From Dechloromonas aromatica (nom. nud.) (GTDB lineage Bacteria > Pseudomonadota > Gammaproteobacteria > Burkholderiales > Rhodocyclaceae): a DNA stretch of 64,000 nucleotides. Location of the stretch: the NCBI GenBank assembly GCA_017848965.1, contig JAFIHA010000033.1:29251-93250 (forward strand). Reading direction: 5' to 3'. Below, in pieces: positions 1 to 7,662 of this stretch. The position numbers and the translations under genes were made by a program. The notes beneath the pieces were generated by a model, which did not search any database, had not been told where the DNA came from, and worked only from the letters and a program-made list of their open reading frames with translations. The first letter of the stretch is position 1. Every line of letters begins with the position of its first letter.

Positions 1-909
1 GCCATGGCCAACCGCCCCGAAGTCCGGGCCGGGCTCGCCGGGCGCGGCATCGTCATCCCGGCGAGCTGCCATTTCGTCGCCGCCGAACACCATACCGGCG
101 ACGACAGCATCGAGTGGTACGACCTCGACCGCCTGCCGGCAAGCCACCAGGCGGATTTCGACCAGTTGCTGGCGAAGCTCTCGGAAGCCTGCCGCTGGCA
201 CGCCGTCGAACGTTGCCGCCGGCTTGCCTCGGCGCCGCCGCGGCCGAACCCGTGGCAGGCGATGCGCCACGTCGCCGGCCGGGTCGCCGATCCGGCGCAG
301 GCCCGCCCGGAACTCGGCCACGCCACCAACGCCGCCGCTTTCATCGGCCGGCGGGCGATGAGCCGCGGTCTCTTCCTCGACCGCCGGGTGTTCCTGATTT
401 CCTACGACCCCGAGGCCGACGGCGACGGTGCCATCGTCGAGCGCATCCTGCTCGCCGCCGGCCCGGTCGGTGCCGGCATCGCCCTCGAATACTATTTTTC
501 CACCGTCGACAACGAGGCCTGGGGCTGCGGCTCCAAGGTCACCCACAACCTGACCGGCTTGTTCGCGGTCATGGAAGGTGCCGAGTCCGACCTGCGCACC
601 GGCTTGCCCTGGCAGATGGTCGAAATCCACGAGCCGATGCGCCTGCTCGTCGTCGTCGAACAGAAACCCGAAGTGCTGTCCGCCATCGTCGCCCGTCAGC
701 CGCCCCTGCAGGAACTGGTCGGCAATGCCTGGATCAATCTCGGCGCGCGCGACCCGACGAGTGGGGCGCTGCACCGCTACTGCCCGCGCCGCGGCTGGCT
801 GCCCTGGGCGGGGAGCCGCGTGCTGCCGCAGGTGGCGCGTTCGCACGACTGGTTCGCCGGCGAATCCGGGCCACTGGCGCCGGCGATGCTGCTGGGAGGC
901 GTGACATGA
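1..909 (+). CDS. dabA: DabA (DUF2309) inorganic-carbon transporter subunit, C-terminal part
   Basis: The gene enters from the left edge, so only about 300 C-terminal residues are visible. They match the end of the DUF2309/DabA family: the segment GCGSKVTHNLTG followed by VMEGAESDLRTGLPWQMV is the family's C-terminal signature. DabA is a carbonic-anhydrase-like protein with a zinc site. It works with a NuoL-like membrane partner to take up CO2/bicarbonate using the ion gradient. The window opens just after where the family's conserved CGACGG zinc-ligand motif would lie, so the metal site itself cannot be checked. Its stop codon overlaps the start of the next gene (ATGA), which is a NuoL-like subunit as expected for a Dab operon. 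Confidence 0.87.
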   Translation, partial: AMANRPEVRAGLAGRGIVIPASCHFVAAEHHTGDDSIEWYDLDRLPASHQADFDQLLAKLSEACRWHAVERCRRLASAPPRPNPWQAMRHVAGRVADPAQARPELGHATNAAAFIGRRAMSRGLFLDRRVFLISYDPEADGDGAIVERILLAAGPVGAGIALEYYFSTVDNEAWGCGSKVTHNLTGLFAVMEGAESDLRTGLPWQMVEIHEPMRLLVVVEQKPEVLSAIVARQPPLQELVGNAWINLGARDPTSGALHRYCPRRGWLPWAGSRVLPQVARSHDWFAGESGPLAPAMLLGGVT

Positions 910-2429
910 GCGAATTGCTGGGTAAGGTTGCCGATCTCGTCTGGCTGGTACCCTTGCTGCCGCTGCTCGCCGCCATGGCGGTTGGTCTGCGCGTGCTGCT
1001 CGGGCGCTGCGCTGGCGATGCCGGCGAAGTGCCGACGGCGCGCTTGAGCGAACTGGCGGCGCTCGGCAGCCTGGGTCTGCTGCTGCTGATCGACCTTGCC
1101 GTGTACTGGCACGGCTGGCCCGGCCAGCGGGTGTTCGCCACGTGGTTTGCCGCCGCCCACTGGCGCGGCCAGATGTCCTTCCTGCTCGACGCCTTGTCGC
1201 TGCCGGTGGCGACGCTGAGTGCGCTGATCGGCTGGCTGGTGGTGCGTTTCTCGGCCGCCTACCTGCATCGCGAGGCGGGTTTCCATCGCTACTTCATCGT
1301 CCTCGGTCTCTTCCTTTCCGGGCTGCAGGCGCTGCTGCTCGCCGGCAACGGGCTGCTGCTCTTCCTCGGTTGGGAAATGTGCGGGGTCGCTTCCTTCCTG
1401 CTCATCGGCTACGCCTGGCAGCGCCCGCTGGCGACCGGCAACGCGCTGTTCGCCTTCGTCAGCAACCGCGTCGGCGACGCCGGCCTGCTCTTCTCGCTTG
1501 GGCTGGCCGCCTACTGGGCCGGCAGTTTCGAGTGGCCGGCGCTGTTCGACGCCCAGTTGTCGCTGGTCGACCTGCGCGTGCTGGTGCTCGGCTTCGCCGT
1601 CGCCGCCCTGGCCAAGTCGGCGCAACTGCCGTTCACGCCGTGGATCGCCCGGGCGCTGGAGGGACCGACGCCGTCGTCGGCGATCTTCTACGGCGCGCTG
1701 CTGGTCCATGCCGGCGTCTTCCTGATGCTGCGCCTGTCGCCGCTGCTCGCCCAGTTGCCCGACGTGCAGGTGGCGCTGGTCGTGATCGGCGCGCTGACCG
1801 CGCTCTATGCTTGGCTGTGCGGCCTGGTGCAGAGCGACATCAAGTCGGCGCTGATCTTCCCCACCGTCTTCCAGGTCGGCCTGATGTTCGTTGCCATCGG
1901 CCTCGGCTGGACGACGCTGGCCACCTGGCACCTCTGCCTGCACGCTGCCTGGCGCGCCTGGCAGTTCCTGCTGGCGCCGTCCTGGCTGCAGTTGACCCGC
2001 GGCCGCCCGGCGCCGCCGCCGCGCTGGCTGGTGCGCAGCCAGACCCTGTACACGGCGGCGCTGCAGCGCTTCTGGCTCGACCGCCTGGGCATCATCCTGC
2101 TCGCCGCGCCGACCGCGGCGATCGCCCGCGACGTGCGGGCGCTGGAAGAAAACTTCATCGACCGCGTCATCGGCGAACCCGGGCGCGGCCGGGCGGTCGC
2201 GTCGGACCGTCCGCTGATCCAGGCCGACGGCCTGCCCGGCCGCCTGCTGGCGCTGCTCGCCGATTTCCTGCAACGGATCGAGAACCGCCTTCTCCTGCGC
2301 GGCCGCGGCGGTGCCGCCGAGCGCCTGCTGCGCGAGGCCGGCCGCTGGCTGGTGACGCTGGAGGGGCTGCTCGAACAACCGCGCTACCTGATGATGGCGG
2401 TGATGGCGACTTTCGTGGTGATCCTCTGA
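906..2429 (+). CDS. dabB: NuoL-like proton-conducting subunit (DabB-type) of the inorganic-carbon pump
   Basis: This 507-residue polytopic membrane protein belongs to the NuoL/MrpA antiporter family (PF00361). The core signature AKSAQLPFTPWIARALEG then PTPSSAI matches the GKSAQLPxxxWLxxAMxGPTPVSA segment of NuoL, including the channel lysine. GWEMCGVASFLLIGY and NRVGDAGLL are also NuoL-like. The C-terminal third is short and does not show the long lateral helix of complex I NuoL. The start overlaps the dabA stop by four bases. In Dab systems the NuoL-like DabB carries the ion flux that drives DabA. Here two further NuoM-like proteins follow, so this is probably the DabB equivalent, but which of the three contacts DabA cannot be told from sequence. 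Confidence 0.83.
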   Translation: MSELLGKVADLVWLVPLLPLLAAMAVGLRVLLGRCAGDAGEVPTARLSELAALGSLGLLLLIDLAVYWHGWPGQRVFATWFAAAHWRGQMSFLLDALSLPVATLSALIGWLVVRFSAAYLHREAGFHRYFIVLGLFLSGLQALLLAGNGLLLFLGWEMCGVASFLLIGYAWQRPLATGNALFAFVSNRVGDAGLLFSLGLAAYWAGSFEWPALFDAQLSLVDLRVLVLGFAVAALAKSAQLPFTPWIARALEGPTPSSAIFYGALLVHAGVFLMLRLSPLLAQLPDVQVALVVIGALTALYAWLCGLVQSDIKSALIFPTVFQVGLMFVAIGLGWTTLATWHLCLHAAWRAWQFLLAPSWLQLTRGRPAPPPRWLVRSQTLYTAALQRFWLDRLGIILLAAPTAAIARDVRALEENFIDRVIGEPGRGRAVASDRPLIQADGLPGRLLALLADFLQRIENRLLLRGRGGAAERLLREAGRWLVTLEGLLEQPRYLMMAVMATFVVIL

Positions 2430-3922
2430 TGCCGAGCGAGACTTTCTGGTTCCAGCAGACGGCGTTGCCGCTGCTCGCCCTCCTGCAACTGCTGCCGCTG
2501 GCCGGCGCGGCGCTGGTCTATGCGCTCGGCGAACGACCGGCGGCGGTGCTCGGCGGCAAGCTGTGCGCGCTGGCCGTCCTCCTCTTCGCCGGCTACGTCG
2601 CCGCCCAGGTCGACCCGACGCGGGCTGGCCTGCAACTGGCGGAGCGCGGGGCGCTGCTCGGCTACCACGTCGCGGTCGACGGCATTGCCATCGTCTTCCT
2701 GCTGCTGGCGGCGCTGCTGACGCTGTTGATGACGCTGTACGGGATGAGCCGCGGCATGATCTCGCCGGGCCGCCTGTTTTCGGTGCTGCTGCTGGCCGAG
2801 GCTGGACTGGTCGGCATGCTGGTCACGGTCAACATCGCCTGGTTCGCCTTCTTCTCGGCGCTCGAATTGTGGGCGGTGGTCTACCTGCTGCGCCGTTGGG
2901 CGTCGTCGCGCGCCGAGACCCAGGCGCTGGCGCGCTTCGTCCAGTACCAGGGCTTCGGGCTGGCGCTTTTCGTCGCCGGCTGCTTCGTGCTTGGCTGGGG
3001 CTACGCCGAAAGCACTGGCGGGCGCTGGAGTTTCGACCTCTTCGACCTGAGCGGCACGCTGCCCGCCGGCAAGTTCCAGACCGCCGCCTTCTACCTGCTG
3101 TTCTACGGCCTGGCGGTGCGCACGCCGCTCTTCCCGCTGCACGGCTGGCTGCCCAACATGGCGCAGCACGGCCTGATCGCGGTGGCGCCGGCGCTGATGG
3201 TCGGGGTCAAGGTCGGCATCTACGGCATGGCCCGCTTCGTCCTGCCGCTGACGCCGGATGCTGTGCTCGCCTGGCAGCCCTACGTCGTCGGCTTCGCCAT
3301 GGCCGGCGTCTTCTTCACCGCCGCGCTTGCCTTCCTGCAGAGCAACCTGCGCCGCTTGCTCGCCTTTGCCGTGGTCAGCCATACCAGTCTTCTGGTGATC
3401 GGCCTGTTCAGCCTGCACGCCGCCGGCATCCAGGGGGCGGTGCTGCTCGCCGCCAACTTCGGGCTGGCGGTGACCGGCATGTGGTTCATCGTCGGCTTCG
3501 TCTTCCGGCGTACCGGGACTACCGAGTTGGGCGAATTGTCCGGCTTGTTCGAGCGCATTCCCTTCCTCGCCGTCGCCTTCCTGACCTGCGGTCTGGCCAT
3601 TGTCGGCATGCCCGGCACGCCCGGTTTCGACGCCGCCCACCTGGTGCTGGAGGCGGCGATCGACCGCTTCGGCGCGTTGTCCACGGTCGCCACCGCGCTC
3701 GGCAACGTGGCCGCCGCCGGCTTCCTGCTCTGGGCCTTCCAGAAGGCCTTCCTGTCGCAGGAGAAGACGGCGGGGCGCGACGTGGACCGGACGCTGGCGA
3801 TGGAATACGCGGTCTGCGGCATCGCCCTGGCGGCGCTGCTGGCGATCGGCTTCTTCACCGAACCCTGGCTGCGCCTGACCGATACCGCCAGCCAGGCGCT
3901 GGCCGCGAGGTTCGTCCAATGA
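2429..3922 (+). CDS. NuoM-like proton-conducting membrane subunit, first copy
   Basis: This 497-residue protein is almost entirely hydrophobic, with about 14 predicted membrane segments, and belongs to the NuoM/NuoN/MrpD family. The motif FPLHGWLPNMAQHG corresponds to the NuoM segment VPLHGWLPDAHSQAPT. The lysine just before it in NuoM (AVKMP) is arginine here (AVRTP). SNLRRLLAFAVVSHTSLL corresponds to the second conserved channel half. The start codon shares its A with the stop codon of the preceding gene (TGATG), so translation is coupled. No NADH- or quinone-binding complex I subunits are nearby. That argues for a role in the carbon pump, not respiration. Confidence 0.78.
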   Translation: MPSETFWFQQTALPLLALLQLLPLAGAALVYALGERPAAVLGGKLCALAVLLFAGYVAAQVDPTRAGLQLAERGALLGYHVAVDGIAIVFLLLAALLTLLMTLYGMSRGMISPGRLFSVLLLAEAGLVGMLVTVNIAWFAFFSALELWAVVYLLRRWASSRAETQALARFVQYQGFGLALFVAGCFVLGWGYAESTGGRWSFDLFDLSGTLPAGKFQTAAFYLLFYGLAVRTPLFPLHGWLPNMAQHGLIAVAPALMVGVKVGIYGMARFVLPLTPDAVLAWQPYVVGFAMAGVFFTAALAFLQSNLRRLLAFAVVSHTSLLVIGLFSLHAAGIQGAVLLAANFGLAVTGMWFIVGFVFRRTGTTELGELSGLFERIPFLAVAFLTCGLAIVGMPGTPGFDAAHLVLEAAIDRFGALSTVATALGNVAAAGFLLWAFQKAFLSQEKTAGRDVDRTLAMEYAVCGIALAALLAIGFFTEPWLRLTDTASQALAARFVQ

Positions 3923-5388
3923 GCCCGCTGTTTCCTGAACTGCCCGTGCTGTCGCTGCTGGTGTTGCTGCCGGTTGCCGCCGCCGGGCTGCTCTGGCTGT
4001 TGCCGGCCCGCCTGGCGCGGCCGGCGACTTTCGTCGCGCTGGCGGCGGTGCTGGCGCTGGCGACGCTGGCGCTGTTTTCCTATCGTCCGGAGACGGCCGG
4101 TTTCCAGCTCATGGAACGCTGGCCGTGGCTGACCGGGCTCGGCGTCGACTGGCTGCTCGCGGTGGATGGGCTGTCGGTGCTCTTCCTGCCGGCGAGCGCC
4201 TTGCTCTTCCTCGGCGCGCTGATCGTCGCCGGCGACGCCGGCGCCAACGCGCCGCGCCTTTTCCACAGCCTGCTCCTGCTTCTGCTGGCGGCGACGCTGG
4301 GCATCTTCTGTGCGATCGACCTGATCGTCTTCTTCGTCTTCTGGGAATTCAGCCTGGTTCCGGTCTATTTCCTGCTGGCGCGCTGGGGCGCCACCGCCGG
4401 GGCGCCGCAGGTCGCCGCGCGCTACGTGCTGATCATGCTCGCTGGCGGCTTTCCGCTGCTGCTCGCCTTTGTCGTCGTCGGCAGCGCCGGCGGCAGTTTC
4501 GACCTGACGGTACTGCTCGGCCACCCGCTGCCGCTGCGCGAGCAGCGCATCGTCCTCGTCCTGATGCTGATCGGTTTCGGCCTCAAGCTGCCGCTGGTGC
4601 CCTTGCATACCTGGCTGCCGCAGTTCGCGCTGGCGGCGCCGGGCAGCCTGAGCGCGCTGCTGCTCGGGCTGAAGGTCGGCGCCTACGGGCTGGTCCGATT
4701 CGCCATTCCGCTGGCGCCGCAGGCGGCGCAGGACTGGCACTGGCTGCTCGCCGGTTTCGGCACGGTGACGCTGATCTACGGCGCGGTCGGCGTCCTGGCG
4801 CACAGCAACCTGCGCGTCGGCATGGCCTACGCCAGCATCTGTCACGTCGGCTTGGCGACGCTCGGTCTGTCGACACTATCCGGGCAGGGCGCGCAGGGGG
4901 CGATCTCGCTGCTGCTCAGCTTCACGGTGGCGAGCGGCGGCGGCATGCTGCTGCTCGAATGCCTGCGCCAGCGCACCGGCTCGACCGACGTCCAGGCGCT
5001 GGGCGGGGCGGCGCGGACCATGCCGCTGTTGGCCAGCGGGGTGCTGATGTGCGGCCTGGCCGGTGTCGGCATGCCGGGGACGAGCAGCTTTCCGGCCGAG
5101 TTCCTGCTCATCCTGGCGACGCTGGATCGCTACACCGGGGCCGGCATGGCGGCGCTGTTCGGGCTGGCGATCGCCGCTGGCGCCTTTCTCTCCCTCTACC
5201 GCAAGGCCTTCTTCGGGCCGCTGACGCAGCCGGCGGTGGCCAGCGCCAGCGATCTGCGGCCAGCCGAGTGGTGGGTCCTGCTGGCGCTGATCGCGATGAT
5301 CGTCGGCATCGGCGTCTATCCTGCGCCCTGGCTGGATATCGTGCGCCCGTCGGCGGAGGCCTGGGCGGCCGGGCTGCAGCGGGGCTAG
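3919..5388 (+). CDS. NuoM-like proton-conducting membrane subunit, second copy
   Basis: The 489-residue product is another NuoM/MrpD-type antiporter-like protein. GFGLKLPLVPLHTWLPQFAL is the channel motif and here keeps the lysine that is arginine in the upstream copy. FVFWEFSLVPVYFLLARWG matches the NuoM glutamate helix, and SNLRVGMAYASICHVGL matches the second half-channel. It overlaps the previous gene by four bases (ATGA) and closes the dabA-containing operon. Both NuoM-like genes are shorter on the N-terminal side than E. coli NuoM but otherwise full. Whether the two copies are redundant or stacked side by side as in complex I is not known from sequence. Confidence 0.8.
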   Translation: MSPLFPELPVLSLLVLLPVAAAGLLWLLPARLARPATFVALAAVLALATLALFSYRPETAGFQLMERWPWLTGLGVDWLLAVDGLSVLFLPASALLFLGALIVAGDAGANAPRLFHSLLLLLLAATLGIFCAIDLIVFFVFWEFSLVPVYFLLARWGATAGAPQVAARYVLIMLAGGFPLLLAFVVVGSAGGSFDLTVLLGHPLPLREQRIVLVLMLIGFGLKLPLVPLHTWLPQFALAAPGSLSALLLGLKVGAYGLVRFAIPLAPQAAQDWHWLLAGFGTVTLIYGAVGVLAHSNLRVGMAYASICHVGLATLGLSTLSGQGAQGAISLLLSFTVASGGGMLLLECLRQRTGSTDVQALGGAARTMPLLASGVLMCGLAGVGMPGTSSFPAEFLLILATLDRYTGAGMAALFGLAIAAGAFLSLYRKAFFGPLTQPAVASASDLRPAEWWVLLALIAMIVGIGVYPAPWLDIVRPSAEAWAAGLQRG

Positions 5389-5391
5389 GCG

Positions 5392-5592
5392 ATGGCAGTG
5401 ACCTCTGCACAGGCGCCGGAGCGGCCGCGTTGCCGCGGCTGCCGGCACTACTACATCACCTTCGACGCGGATTTTCCCTACGGCTGCCGCCAGCTCGGCT
5501 TCAAGAGCGCGCGCGAGCCGATGCGCGACGTCATCGAGTCGTCGGGGCAGCCCTGCCTCTATTTCACGCCGGGCAAGCCAGCGCCCGGCTGA
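5392..5592 (+). CDS. small four-cysteine protein, function unknown
   Basis: A 66-residue soluble protein starts three bases after the last antiporter gene, so it is probably in the same transcript. It has a CxxC pair (Cys14, Cys17) and two single cysteines (Cys32, Cys55) in the pattern CRGCRHYYITFD, then PYGCRQLGFKS and GQPC. This could form one zinc or iron-sulfur site. I recognise it as a conserved small protein of proteobacteria but know no proven role. The next gene is convergent and begins one base after its stop. Confidence 0.7.
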   Translation: MAVTSAQAPERPRCRGCRHYYITFDADFPYGCRQLGFKSAREPMRDVIESSGQPCLYFTPGKPAPG

Positions 5593-5937: not shown

Positions 5938-7662
5938 TCAGTATTCTTCCTGGTGGCCGCCCATCAGGTTGGGCAGCAGGCGGTGGGCACGCGCGATGGC
6001 GTGCGGGAGGTCGGCGCAGACGTTGTCGTCGCCGACGGCGTCGATGAAGCCGGCGCGGTAGAGCAGCGAGCCGGGTTGCGAATTGAGGCCGCAGAGGAGC
6101 AGCGTGCAGCCGCGCTTGGCCAGCTTGTCGCGCAGGTTCTCCAGGCCTTCGAGGCCGGTGGTGTCGAGCTGGACCAGGCGGGTGGTGTCGAGGATGACGA
6201 CTTCCGGATGGCCGGCGCGCGGGTCGAGCAGTTCTTCGAGCTTGTTCACGGCGCCGAAGAACAGCGAGCCGTACAACTGCCAGGCGGCGACGCGCAGCGT
6301 GCCGTCGGGGTAGAGCAGGTGCGGCTCCTGCGCTTCCTCGTCGAGCGGCAGGCGCTCGATGCGGGTTAGTTCGGACATGCGGTAGATGAAGAACAAGCTG
6401 GCCAGGACCATGCCGAGTTCGACGGCGATGGTCAGGTCGAAGAGCACGGTGACCAGGAAGACGCTGACCAGGATCAGCCGGTAATTCCACGAATAGCGGC
6501 GCAGTTCCTTGAATTCGTGCCATTCGCCCATGTTGATGGCGACCACCATGACGATCGCCGACAGCGTCGCCAGCGGCACGTAGGCGGCGAGCGGCGCGGC
6601 GACCAGGACGACGGCGAGCAGGGTTGCCGCGTGGATGATGCCGGCGATCGGCGTGCGCCCGCCGGACTTGACGTTGGTCGAGGTGCGGGCGATCGCGCCG
6701 GTCGCCGCGAAACCGCCGCACAGTGGGGCGGCGATGTTGGCCAGGCCCTGGGCGACGAGTTCCTGGTTGGGGTCGTGGCGGTCGTCGATCTGGCCGTCGG
6801 CGACGCGTGCCGAGAGCAGCGACTCGATGGCGCCGAGCAGGGCGATGGTGATCGCCGGCGAGATCAGCTTGCCGAAGTCGTGGATCGAGACATCGGGGAA
6901 GCCGAAGGCCGGCAGTTCCTGCGGAATGCCGTTGAAGCGGCTGCCGATGGTTTCCACCGGCAGGTCGAGCGCCCAGGCGGCGACGGTGCCGACCACCAGC
7001 ACGGCGAGCGGGCCGGGCGCCCGGCGCAGCGGCGCGAAGCGTTGCGCCAGCCGGTTGTAGGAGAGCAGGAAGACGAAGCAGGCGATCGACAATGCCAGCG
7101 TCGGCAGGTCTACGGTATGCGCGTGTGCCGCCAGCACCTTGATCCGGGCGAAGAATTCGGCCGGCAGGCTGGCGATGGTGAGGCCGAAGAAATCCTTGAT
7201 CTGGGCGAGGAAGATGACGACGGCGATGCCGTTGGTGAAGCCGATGACGACGGTCACCGGGATGAAGCGGATCAACTGGCCCATGCGCGTCAGGCCCATC
7301 GCCAGCAGCATGACGCCGGCGAGCATGGTGGCGCCGAGCAGGTTGGCGAAGCCGTGGGCAGCGACGATGCCGTAGATGATCGGGATGAAGGCGCCGGTCG
7401 GGCCGCCGATCTGCACCCGCGAGCCGCCGAGCAGCGAAATGATCAGGCCGGCGACGATGGCGGTCCAGATGCCGGCGGTCGGCGACACCCCGGAAGCGAT
7501 CGCGAAGGCCATCGCCAGCGGCAGCGCCAGCACGCCGACGGTGATCCCGGCGCCGAGGTCCTTGCCAAACTGGGCCCGGTCGTAAGTCGGCAGGCAATCC
7601 AGCAGCTTGGGACGGAAGGCGATCTTCATCATGACGCGCACTCGGGGAGGGAAGCGTTGCAT
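5938..7662 (-). CDS. SulP family inorganic anion transporter with STAS domain
   Basis: This 574-residue SulP/SLC26 permease has a membrane domain over about residues 35-430. Motifs include GGPTGAFIPIIYGIVA and the transport-domain segment TGAIARTSTNVKSGG. A cytoplasmic STAS domain covers about 450-560, with LDTTRLVQLDTTGLEGL as its nucleotide-binding-like loop. SulP proteins carry sulfate, bicarbonate or other anions; several bacterial members are bicarbonate transporters. Placement 0.5 kb from a dabA-type carbon pump favours bicarbonate, but substrate cannot be read from sequence. The first ATG (7662) lacks a Shine-Dalgarno site. A tandem MetMet at 7632/7629 before KIAFRPK is an equally good start. 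Confidence 0.9.
   Translation of the reverse strand: MQRFPPRVRVMMKIAFRPKLLDCLPTYDRAQFGKDLGAGITVGVLALPLAMAFAIASGVSPTAGIWTAIVAGLIISLLGGSRVQIGGPTGAFIPIIYGIVAAHGFANLLGATMLAGVMLLAMGLTRMGQLIRFIPVTVVIGFTNGIAVVIFLAQIKDFFGLTIASLPAEFFARIKVLAAHAHTVDLPTLALSIACFVFLLSYNRLAQRFAPLRRAPGPLAVLVVGTVAAWALDLPVETIGSRFNGIPQELPAFGFPDVSIHDFGKLISPAITIALLGAIESLLSARVADGQIDDRHDPNQELVAQGLANIAAPLCGGFAATGAIARTSTNVKSGGRTPIAGIIHAATLLAVVLVAAPLAAYVPLATLSAIVMVVAINMGEWHEFKELRRYSWNYRLILVSVFLVTVLFDLTIAVELGMVLASLFFIYRMSELTRIERLPLDEEAQEPHLLYPDGTLRVAAWQLYGSLFFGAVNKLEELLDPRAGHPEVVILDTTRLVQLDTTGLEGLENLRDKLAKRGCTLLLCGLNSQPGSLLYRAGFIDAVGDDNVCADLPHAIARAHRLLPNLMGGHQEEY

Follow-up and report, generated by a model that had tools for sequence, protein, structure and literature searches.

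What does a carbonic anhydrase of the DabA family do in an operon with several membrane proteins that resemble the antiporter-like subunits of complex I? The question is raised by a 64,000-nucleotide stretch of DNA from Dechloromonas aromatica (the window), which opens inside dabA and continues on the same strand with three such genes, designated B, M1 and M2; a fourth, N0, lies upstream of dabA. We consider it probable that the operon encodes one DAB-type membrane complex, which would take up inorganic carbon and include a complex-I-like arm. From its residues, the five-gene type is best read as a DAB-type vectorial carbonic anhydrase of a third kind, besides DAB1 and DAB2. The five genes occur as a set, and genomes in which they are unlinked still retain all of them. 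From these data we infer a physical complex, its substrate and the direction in which it would work.

Layout of the operon

A sequence-only reading of the window had recognised dabA followed by one NuoL-like and two NuoM-like genes with overlapping starts and stops, and had counted three antiporter-like subunits. The overlaps were confirmed: the 3' end of dabA (1..909, +) and B (906..2429, +) have ATGA in common, B and M1 (2429..3922, +) have TGATG in common, and M1 and M2 (3919..5388, +) again share ATGA, leaving gapless junctions. All three membrane subunits are present, but the count was too low. Extension of the contig to the left (contig C3 of the host genome, G000) yielded the full dabA (C3:27187-30159, 990 amino acids) and, with 1 base between the two genes, a NuoM-like gene of the same system, N0 (C3:25737-27185, 482 amino acids). 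The antiporter-like subunits therefore number four, and the gene set is N0-dabA-B-M1-M2, with N0 and the 5' part of dabA outside the window.

DabA matches its family over profile positions 3-747 of 747 (PF10070, 800.4 bits against a cut-off of 25). B (507 amino acids) is a DabB-like, NuoL-related short antiporter-like subunit (PF00361, 122.1 bits; PF00662, 40.4 bits). The other three are NuoM-like members of PF00361. N0 and M2 (489 amino acids; PF00361, 152.2 bits) exceed the 263.8-bit cut-off of the NuoM subfamily model NDH_I_M, with 463.7 and 356.9 bits, respectively; the divergent M1 (497 amino acids; PF00361, 110.4 bits) falls narrowly under it, with 260.7 bits.

The possibility that these are stray genes of complex I or of an Mrp antiporter was rejected. 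The host genome encodes ten PF00361 proteins: three on contig C20 (NuoL, NuoM and NuoN) and two on C63 (MrpA and MrpD), each above a curated cut-off, the four of the operon, and one on C59. No other nuo gene occurs among the operon genes and the scanned neighbours, and no Mrp small subunit was found in the gapless operon or among the same neighbours. Immediately upstream, where an intact complex I or Mrp operon might have explained the NuoM copies, there is the NuoM-like N0.

Conservation and dispersal of the five genes

Being the most divergent member, M1 served as the search probe. It was found in 10 of 300 genomes of the order Burkholderiales, and the full order N0-dabA-B-M1-M2 was present at 8 of the 9 loci fetched from the order, the ninth being truncated where its contig ends. 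A relative of M1 is encoded in 391 stretches of named genomes, and our counts rest on the best 80 of them. The full order occurs at 65 of these 80 loci; the named hosts include Azonexus, Dechloromonas, Accumulibacter, Sulfuricella and Sulfurimicrobium. Of the other 15 loci, 13 are truncated where the contig or locus stops; the last two are L050 (see below) and L111, which has M1-M2 without dabA or B in the preceding 10 kb. At an E-value of 1e-90 or better, M1 occurs in 17 of 369 genomes of the class. In the phylum sample it was found in 36 of 398 genomes, 34 of them outside the class; from 17 of these 34, loci were fetched, and 15 show the full order. The exceptions are G728, in which a contig is cut inside dabA and N0 with the remaining dabA lies on another contig, and G808, which is rearranged. 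The conservation of this order is beyond chance, since it recurs even where protein identity has fallen to about 35-50%. Near relatives (Azonexaceae, Accumulibacter) are heavily represented in the rows, and the counts given here and below are therefore not independent; before residues were counted, we dropped two fusions and one short sequence from the 105 M1 rows, and three joined readings of more than 600 amino acids from the 95 B rows.

The strongest evidence for joint function comes from genomes in which the operon has been broken up. All five genes were found in 16 of the 17 M1-bearing class genomes, and in four of these 16 (G373, G626, G367 and G497) some are unlinked; in G513 (77% complete), only M1-M2 was found. 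Together with G665 and G808, which lie outside this count, six genomes have a scattered operon yet retain all five genes, which argues that the five proteins work together. In G373, N0-B-M1-M2 stand together and dabA, whose product is among the most divergent DabAs of the clade, is on another contig. The genes occupy three places in G626 (N0-dabA, B and M1-M2) and four in G665 (dabA, N0, B and M1-M2). In G808 (L272 1567-7530), the order is N0-M2-B-M1, with dabA on another contig. In G367 and G497, which belong to one genus, dabA precedes a gene for a 1045-amino-acid B-M1 fusion protein, and N0 and M2 each stand alone elsewhere; G497 has an extra reading frame between dabA and the fusion.

L050 was considered as a second, independent B-M1 fusion and rejected, since a frameshift close to where B ends produces the joined reading. 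In G333 (L139 6540-7927), a single-contig genome counted among the 16, M2 matches in two pieces in different reading frames, possibly also owing to a frameshift.

Active site and finger of DabA

Residues of DabA are numbered here as in DabA2 of Halothiobacillus neapolitanus, and those of the antiporter-like subunits as in Escherichia coli. The zinc-site residues C351, D353, H524 and C539 are kept in 94 of 94 five-gene DabAs, and R355 in 93 of them. Other functional positions have changed. The finger glutamate E444, present in 27/27 DAB1-type and 9/9 DAB2-type proteins, occurs in none of the 94 (Ala in 60, Asp in 4, other residues in the rest). Leu658, likewise kept in 27/27 and 9/9, is replaced by His in 93 and by Tyr in one; the part of dabA inside the window carries this His (H795) in an RPELGH motif. 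The site of Ser356, next to R355, is Glu in all 94. DabAs from outside the class agree in 15 of 15 cases at these three positions. His at the Leu658 site is the state of ordinary beta-carbonic anhydrases. In the passages of PMC13144422 on DabA2, Ser356 is described as a water-binding residue, and the finger substitutions E444A and E444Q abolish activity.

A tree of 62 DabA proteins placed the five-gene sequences in one clade (support 100), apart from the DAB1 and DAB2 types. An AlphaFold model of the DabA of Azonexus hydrophilus (L034; mean predicted local distance difference test score, pLDDT, 80.3) has a long helical hairpin (536-562 and 566-587) at the position of the finger. Among PDB entries to April 2026 this model had no significant match; the best among the 50 matches listed, which did not include the DAB2 entry 9rd0, was the beta-carbonic anhydrase CsoSCA (E 0.11).

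Channel residues of the antiporter-like subunits

The sequence-only reading had proposed placing these subunits in a PF00361 tree. We built one with 93 proteins by a quick method without bootstrap; it contains some long branches and no cyanobacterial sequence. N0, B, M1 and M2 each formed one clade (99-100). B was sister to DabB1 plus DabB2 (92 in the Shimodaira-Hasegawa-like approximate likelihood ratio test, SH-aLRT, under the starred level of 95), N0 grouped with NuoM (91), and M1 and M2 were sisters (98).

B of the window has E157, R188, D191 and K237 at the positions of NuoL E144, R175, D178 and K229. The Glu144 site is Glu in 93/93 B proteins and in 17/17 further ones; it is I, V, L or S in 10/10 DabB2 proteins and H, Y, F or N in the 26 listed of 27 DabB1 proteins. 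In DabB2 the residue is Ile151, and I151E halves growth, as stated in passages of PMC13144422. The PF00361 match of the window's B stops early, at profile position 221 of 294. Its AlphaFold model (mean pLDDT 78.8; poor at the C-terminus, with residues 481-507 under 50) found NuoL-type chains as its best Foldseek matches, of which those with low root-mean-square deviation cover about 345-370 columns. The likeness to NuoL extends over roughly the first 345-370 residues of the model.

An arginine in place of the channel lysine had been noticed in the first NuoM copy, with lysine kept in the second, and a division of labour had been suggested. M1 does have R231 at NuoM K234, the lysine of transmembrane helix 7 (TM7), and M2 keeps the lysine as K223; the site is Arg in 103/103 M1 and Lys in 94/94 M2. 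As a feature unique to M1, however, the arginine was rejected, since 26 of 27 DabB1-type proteins share it. A division of labour fits the residues as a whole. Besides K234, M1 has lost E144 (TM5) and the TM12 acid E407, the latter replaced by FDAAH (D401, H404) with His404 invariant in 103/103; it keeps K265 in 103/103. N0 retains the NuoM set, with the equivalents of E144, K234, K265, H348 and E407 in 87 or 88 of 88. M2 (E143, K223, K252 and E394 in the window) retains both Glu and the K234 and K265 equivalents in 93 or 94 of 94, and departs from the set by Phe for His348 (93/94) and Arg for Lys at NuoL 305 (94/94). As judged from the alignments, then, the zinc ligands are intact, B is a relative of DabB, and N0 and M2 have near-complete NuoM channel residues; M1 is unlikely to conduct net charge.

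Comparison with known systems

DAB2 (DabA2-DabB2 of H. neapolitanus; PDB 9rd0), as described in passages of PMC13144422, shares with the five-gene type the PF10070 subunit and the zinc ligands. Its NuoL-like partner likewise leaves PF00361 early, and the helical hairpin predicted here lies at the finger. The two differ in the number of antiporter-like subunits (one versus four), at the finger (Glu444 present versus absent), at Leu658 (versus His) and Ser356 (versus Glu), and at DabB2 Ile151, where B keeps Glu. In gene order, dabA precedes B here and follows dabB in the DAB2-type loci examined. DAB1 (hneap_0907-0909 type) is alike in having the same zinc site and a long DabA (about 1040-1100 amino acids in most loci, 1046 in H. 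neapolitanus). It differs in its single NuoL-like gene upstream of dabA and in its DabA, which belongs to a separate clade and keeps both the finger Glu and Leu658, of which the five-gene type has neither. The five-gene type thus has the zinc site and the NuoL-like partner of the DabB clade that mark DAB1 and DAB2, without Glu444 and without the loss of the NuoL Glu144 equivalent.

MpsAB(C) of Staphylococcus aureus presumably has one NuoL-like membrane partner. Its components are DabB and DabA homologues with a bicarbonate role, argued to use sodium, according to passages of PMC13144422. With the complex I arm (NuoL/M/N) there is likeness in that N0 groups with NuoM and that N0 and M2 keep the TM5 Glu, TM7 Lys and TM12 Glu; the operon differs in that M1 is without key residues and no other nuo gene is present. 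The overall interpretation given by the sequence-only reading, a DabA-type system with several antiporter-like subunits, was borne out, but the likeness it drew to the NdhF/NdhD/CupA CO2-hydration complexes of cyanobacteria (NDH-1MS) was not supported: B scored 133.5 bits with the ndhF3 model, against a cut-off of 588.7.

That more subunits might move more ions per bicarbonate is already in print. Passages of COGNAT 2017 (PMC5700660) describe ybcC operons that have genes for NuoM and SulP nearby, and suggest that the number of ions follows the number of subunits. In clade C of these YbcC (COG3002) operons, ybcC precedes nuoL and is accompanied by NuoM (COG1008) and SulP (COG0659) genes. Such operons are very likely the same systems, as far as those passages describe them; the passages neither count subunits nor compare residues, and they mention no unlinked sets and no fusion. 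In the literature searched, which left subscription papers largely outside, we recognised no other description of a multi-antiporter DabA system.

Neighbouring genes and other carbon genes

Directly 3' of M2 there is a gene for a 66-amino-acid protein with four cysteines (5392..5592, +), which matched nothing in Pfam or NCBIfam. It was recognised at only 8 of the 80 named loci and is therefore probably not a core part of the operon. A convergent gene for a SulP/STAS transporter follows (5938..7662, -; PF00916, 310.7 bits). SulP is the commonest neighbour cluster within 3.5 kb, at 37 of 96 loci. At 7 of the 96, a gene for a CsoSCA-like carbonic anhydrase adjoins the operon; all three of the CsoSCA-like proteins tested match PF20686 (22.7-26.5 bits, cut-off 21.5). 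It stands beside M2 at L033, L105, L140 and four more loci, none of them among the Azonexus/Dechloromonas loci L034-L075. Upstream of N0, a divergent gene encodes an HTH_17 domain fused to a response-regulator receiver (L003 9990-10586, -); it adjoins the operon in many Azonexaceae loci and is a candidate regulator.

Elsewhere in the host genome, C59 carries a second DabA pair in the canonical dabB-dabA order (L004, G000:C59, 1-3139), with dabA cut by the contig end and a divergent LysR-family gene (PF00126) beside it. The genome also encodes one beta-carbonic anhydrase (PF00484) and one RuBisCO (NF010002, 901.7 bits), presumably of form II, the form that we take this model to represent.

Contrary evidence and alternative explanations

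The sample contains 75 DabA-bearing genomes; those examined for incomplete sets were the genomes behind 40 fetched DabA loci and the M1-bearing ones. Four of the 40 loci lie in the five-gene clade or at its base and come from genomes without an M1 hit. The DabAs of G545 and G369 branch at the base of the clade. In G350, the contig ends inside B, and another short contig has M2 and a fragment that scores alike to M2 and M1.

Several observations weigh against one complex of five subunits dedicated to carbon uptake. Two-gene members of the wider clade exist: in G545 (88% complete; L238 6035-10463), only the dabA-B pair is present, and N0, M1 and M2 were not found. DabA and B of this pair carry the same residue changes as the five-gene type, so the changes alone do not require the extra subunits. 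In G369 (78% complete; L229 2747-8624), which also has complex I and Mrp, dabA and B are accompanied by a single divergent PF00361 gene; in G616, M1 and M2 were not found, and the contig ends inside B. Since the residue differences follow clades, they represent few independent events. B has Tyr (92/93) at NuoL His254 and Arg (93/93) at Lys342, where both DabB types keep the original residues. A histidine in place of Leu658 does not necessarily make the enzyme active, given that DAB2 L658Q is inactive in vitro and L658G, L658A and L658N are functional in vivo (passages of PMC13144422). Any carbon role of the SulP transporter next to the operon in the window is putative: among NCBIfam models it matches DauA best, though under the cut-off, and BicA scores far below. 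Finally, one proton at about 150 mV is worth about 14.5 kJ/mol, which suffices for a few-hundred-fold accumulation of bicarbonate. One proton per CO2 being enough, four conducting subunits look excessive.

The proposal that B keeps Glu144 only together with partner subunits is weakened, as the two-gene B of G545 keeps it too.

DabA and B might instead form an ordinary two-subunit DAB, with N0, M1 and M2 making up a separate, co-regulated Mrp-like or other antiporter complex, for instance for pH or sodium balance during CO2 hydration. The fusion of B, the DabB homologue, to M1 in G367 and G497 is hard to place in such an arrangement; the genes abut or overlap in the host genome, leaving no room for Mrp small subunits, and all five are kept in 16 of 17 M1-bearing class genomes. 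It would agree with the NuoM channel residues of N0 and M2, with the two-gene relative in G545, with the M1-M2 pair apart from dabA in G626 and G665, and with the grouping of the four membrane genes without dabA in G373 and G808. It would also agree with L233 (G324:C1, 544-12451), where dabA sits inside an apparently full Mrp/MBH-type antiporter operon whose genes, all in one direction, are SulP, dabA, MrpE, MrpF, MrpG, MbhD/E-like, MrpB-like, NuoK/MrpC-like, MrpD-like, NuoL-like and NuoM-like. On balance we regard two separate complexes as unlikely. In the DabA of L233, position 658 is Leu and the finger residue is Asp.

A second alternative is reverse or other chemistry, in which the DabA reaction, being exergonic under conditions in the cell, would drive ions outward through the membrane subunits; passages of COGNAT 2017 (PMC5700660) propose this for YbcC operons. 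The ordinary beta-carbonic anhydrase histidine of DabA (93/94) and the pumping-type ion pair of B (93/93), both unlike DAB2, would suit such a role. Many hosts, such as Dechloromonas and Accumulibacter, are largely heterotrophic, which we also counted in its favour. By established thermodynamics, however, the interconversion of CO2 and bicarbonate lies near equilibrium and could hardly drive several ions outward; a role in carbon supply is indicated by the zinc ligands, together with the SulP and CsoSCA-like genes nearby, and we consider ion export improbable. Redox-driven CO2 hydration, with the arm working with an unlinked electron-transfer module as in NDH-1MS, is suggested by the combination of a carbonic-anhydrase-like protein with four complex-I-like membrane subunits but is very improbable, as B is far from NdhF3 and no redox subunit occurs among the five genes or the scanned host neighbours (YjdM, SulP, HTH-receiver and MCP proteins; the flanks of other loci were only clustered).

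Proposed mechanism

The reading we prefer, one DAB-type complex for inorganic carbon uptake, suggests the following mechanism. A DabA-type zinc carbonic anhydrase would dock on the cytoplasmic side on B, its DabB, and through B it would be connected to N0, M1 and M2, which would make up a complex-I-like arm. Ion flow down the membrane gradient would drive the hydration of CO2 to bicarbonate inside the cell. In the model for DAB2 given in passages of PMC13144422, a latent enzyme (Leu658) is switched on by protons through DabB and the finger glutamate of DabA, and DabB is held open by loss of the Glu144 equivalent. The five-gene enzyme instead has the usual beta-carbonic anhydrase histidine. Its finger, being without the glutamate, would not relay protons; the coupling ions would therefore probably pass through channels of the N0/M2 type. 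B, which retains the alternating ion pair and which the B-M1 fusion places physically next to M1, may, as in complex I, pass open and closed states between the arm and DabA. These last two steps are the least certain part. Four protons per CO2 would be far above need, so that not all subunits may conduct, another cation may be exchanged, or the system may serve at low gradients. Only tentatively do we go further and propose a third mechanistic class, in which an enzyme with the beta-carbonic anhydrase histidine and without a finger relay would be coupled through an ion-pair switch between open and closed states, like that of complex I, to three further antiporter-like subunits.

Implications

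A central open question of complex I is how its antiporter-like subunits link the movement of ions to a reaction that takes place far away, and similar subunits here appear to be coupled to a simple, non-redox reaction. If this is true, the operon would encode a complex I membrane arm in which a carbonic anhydrase replaces electron transfer as the 'engine'; such an arm might move several ions for each CO2, or it might exchange protons against a different cation. Natural variants exist with one (DAB1/2, G545), two (G369) and four antiporter-like subunits, and definite residue predictions can be made against a solved relative. For Dechloromonas, Azonexus, Accumulibacter and sulfur oxidisers, the five genes represent a candidate system for the uptake of inorganic carbon.

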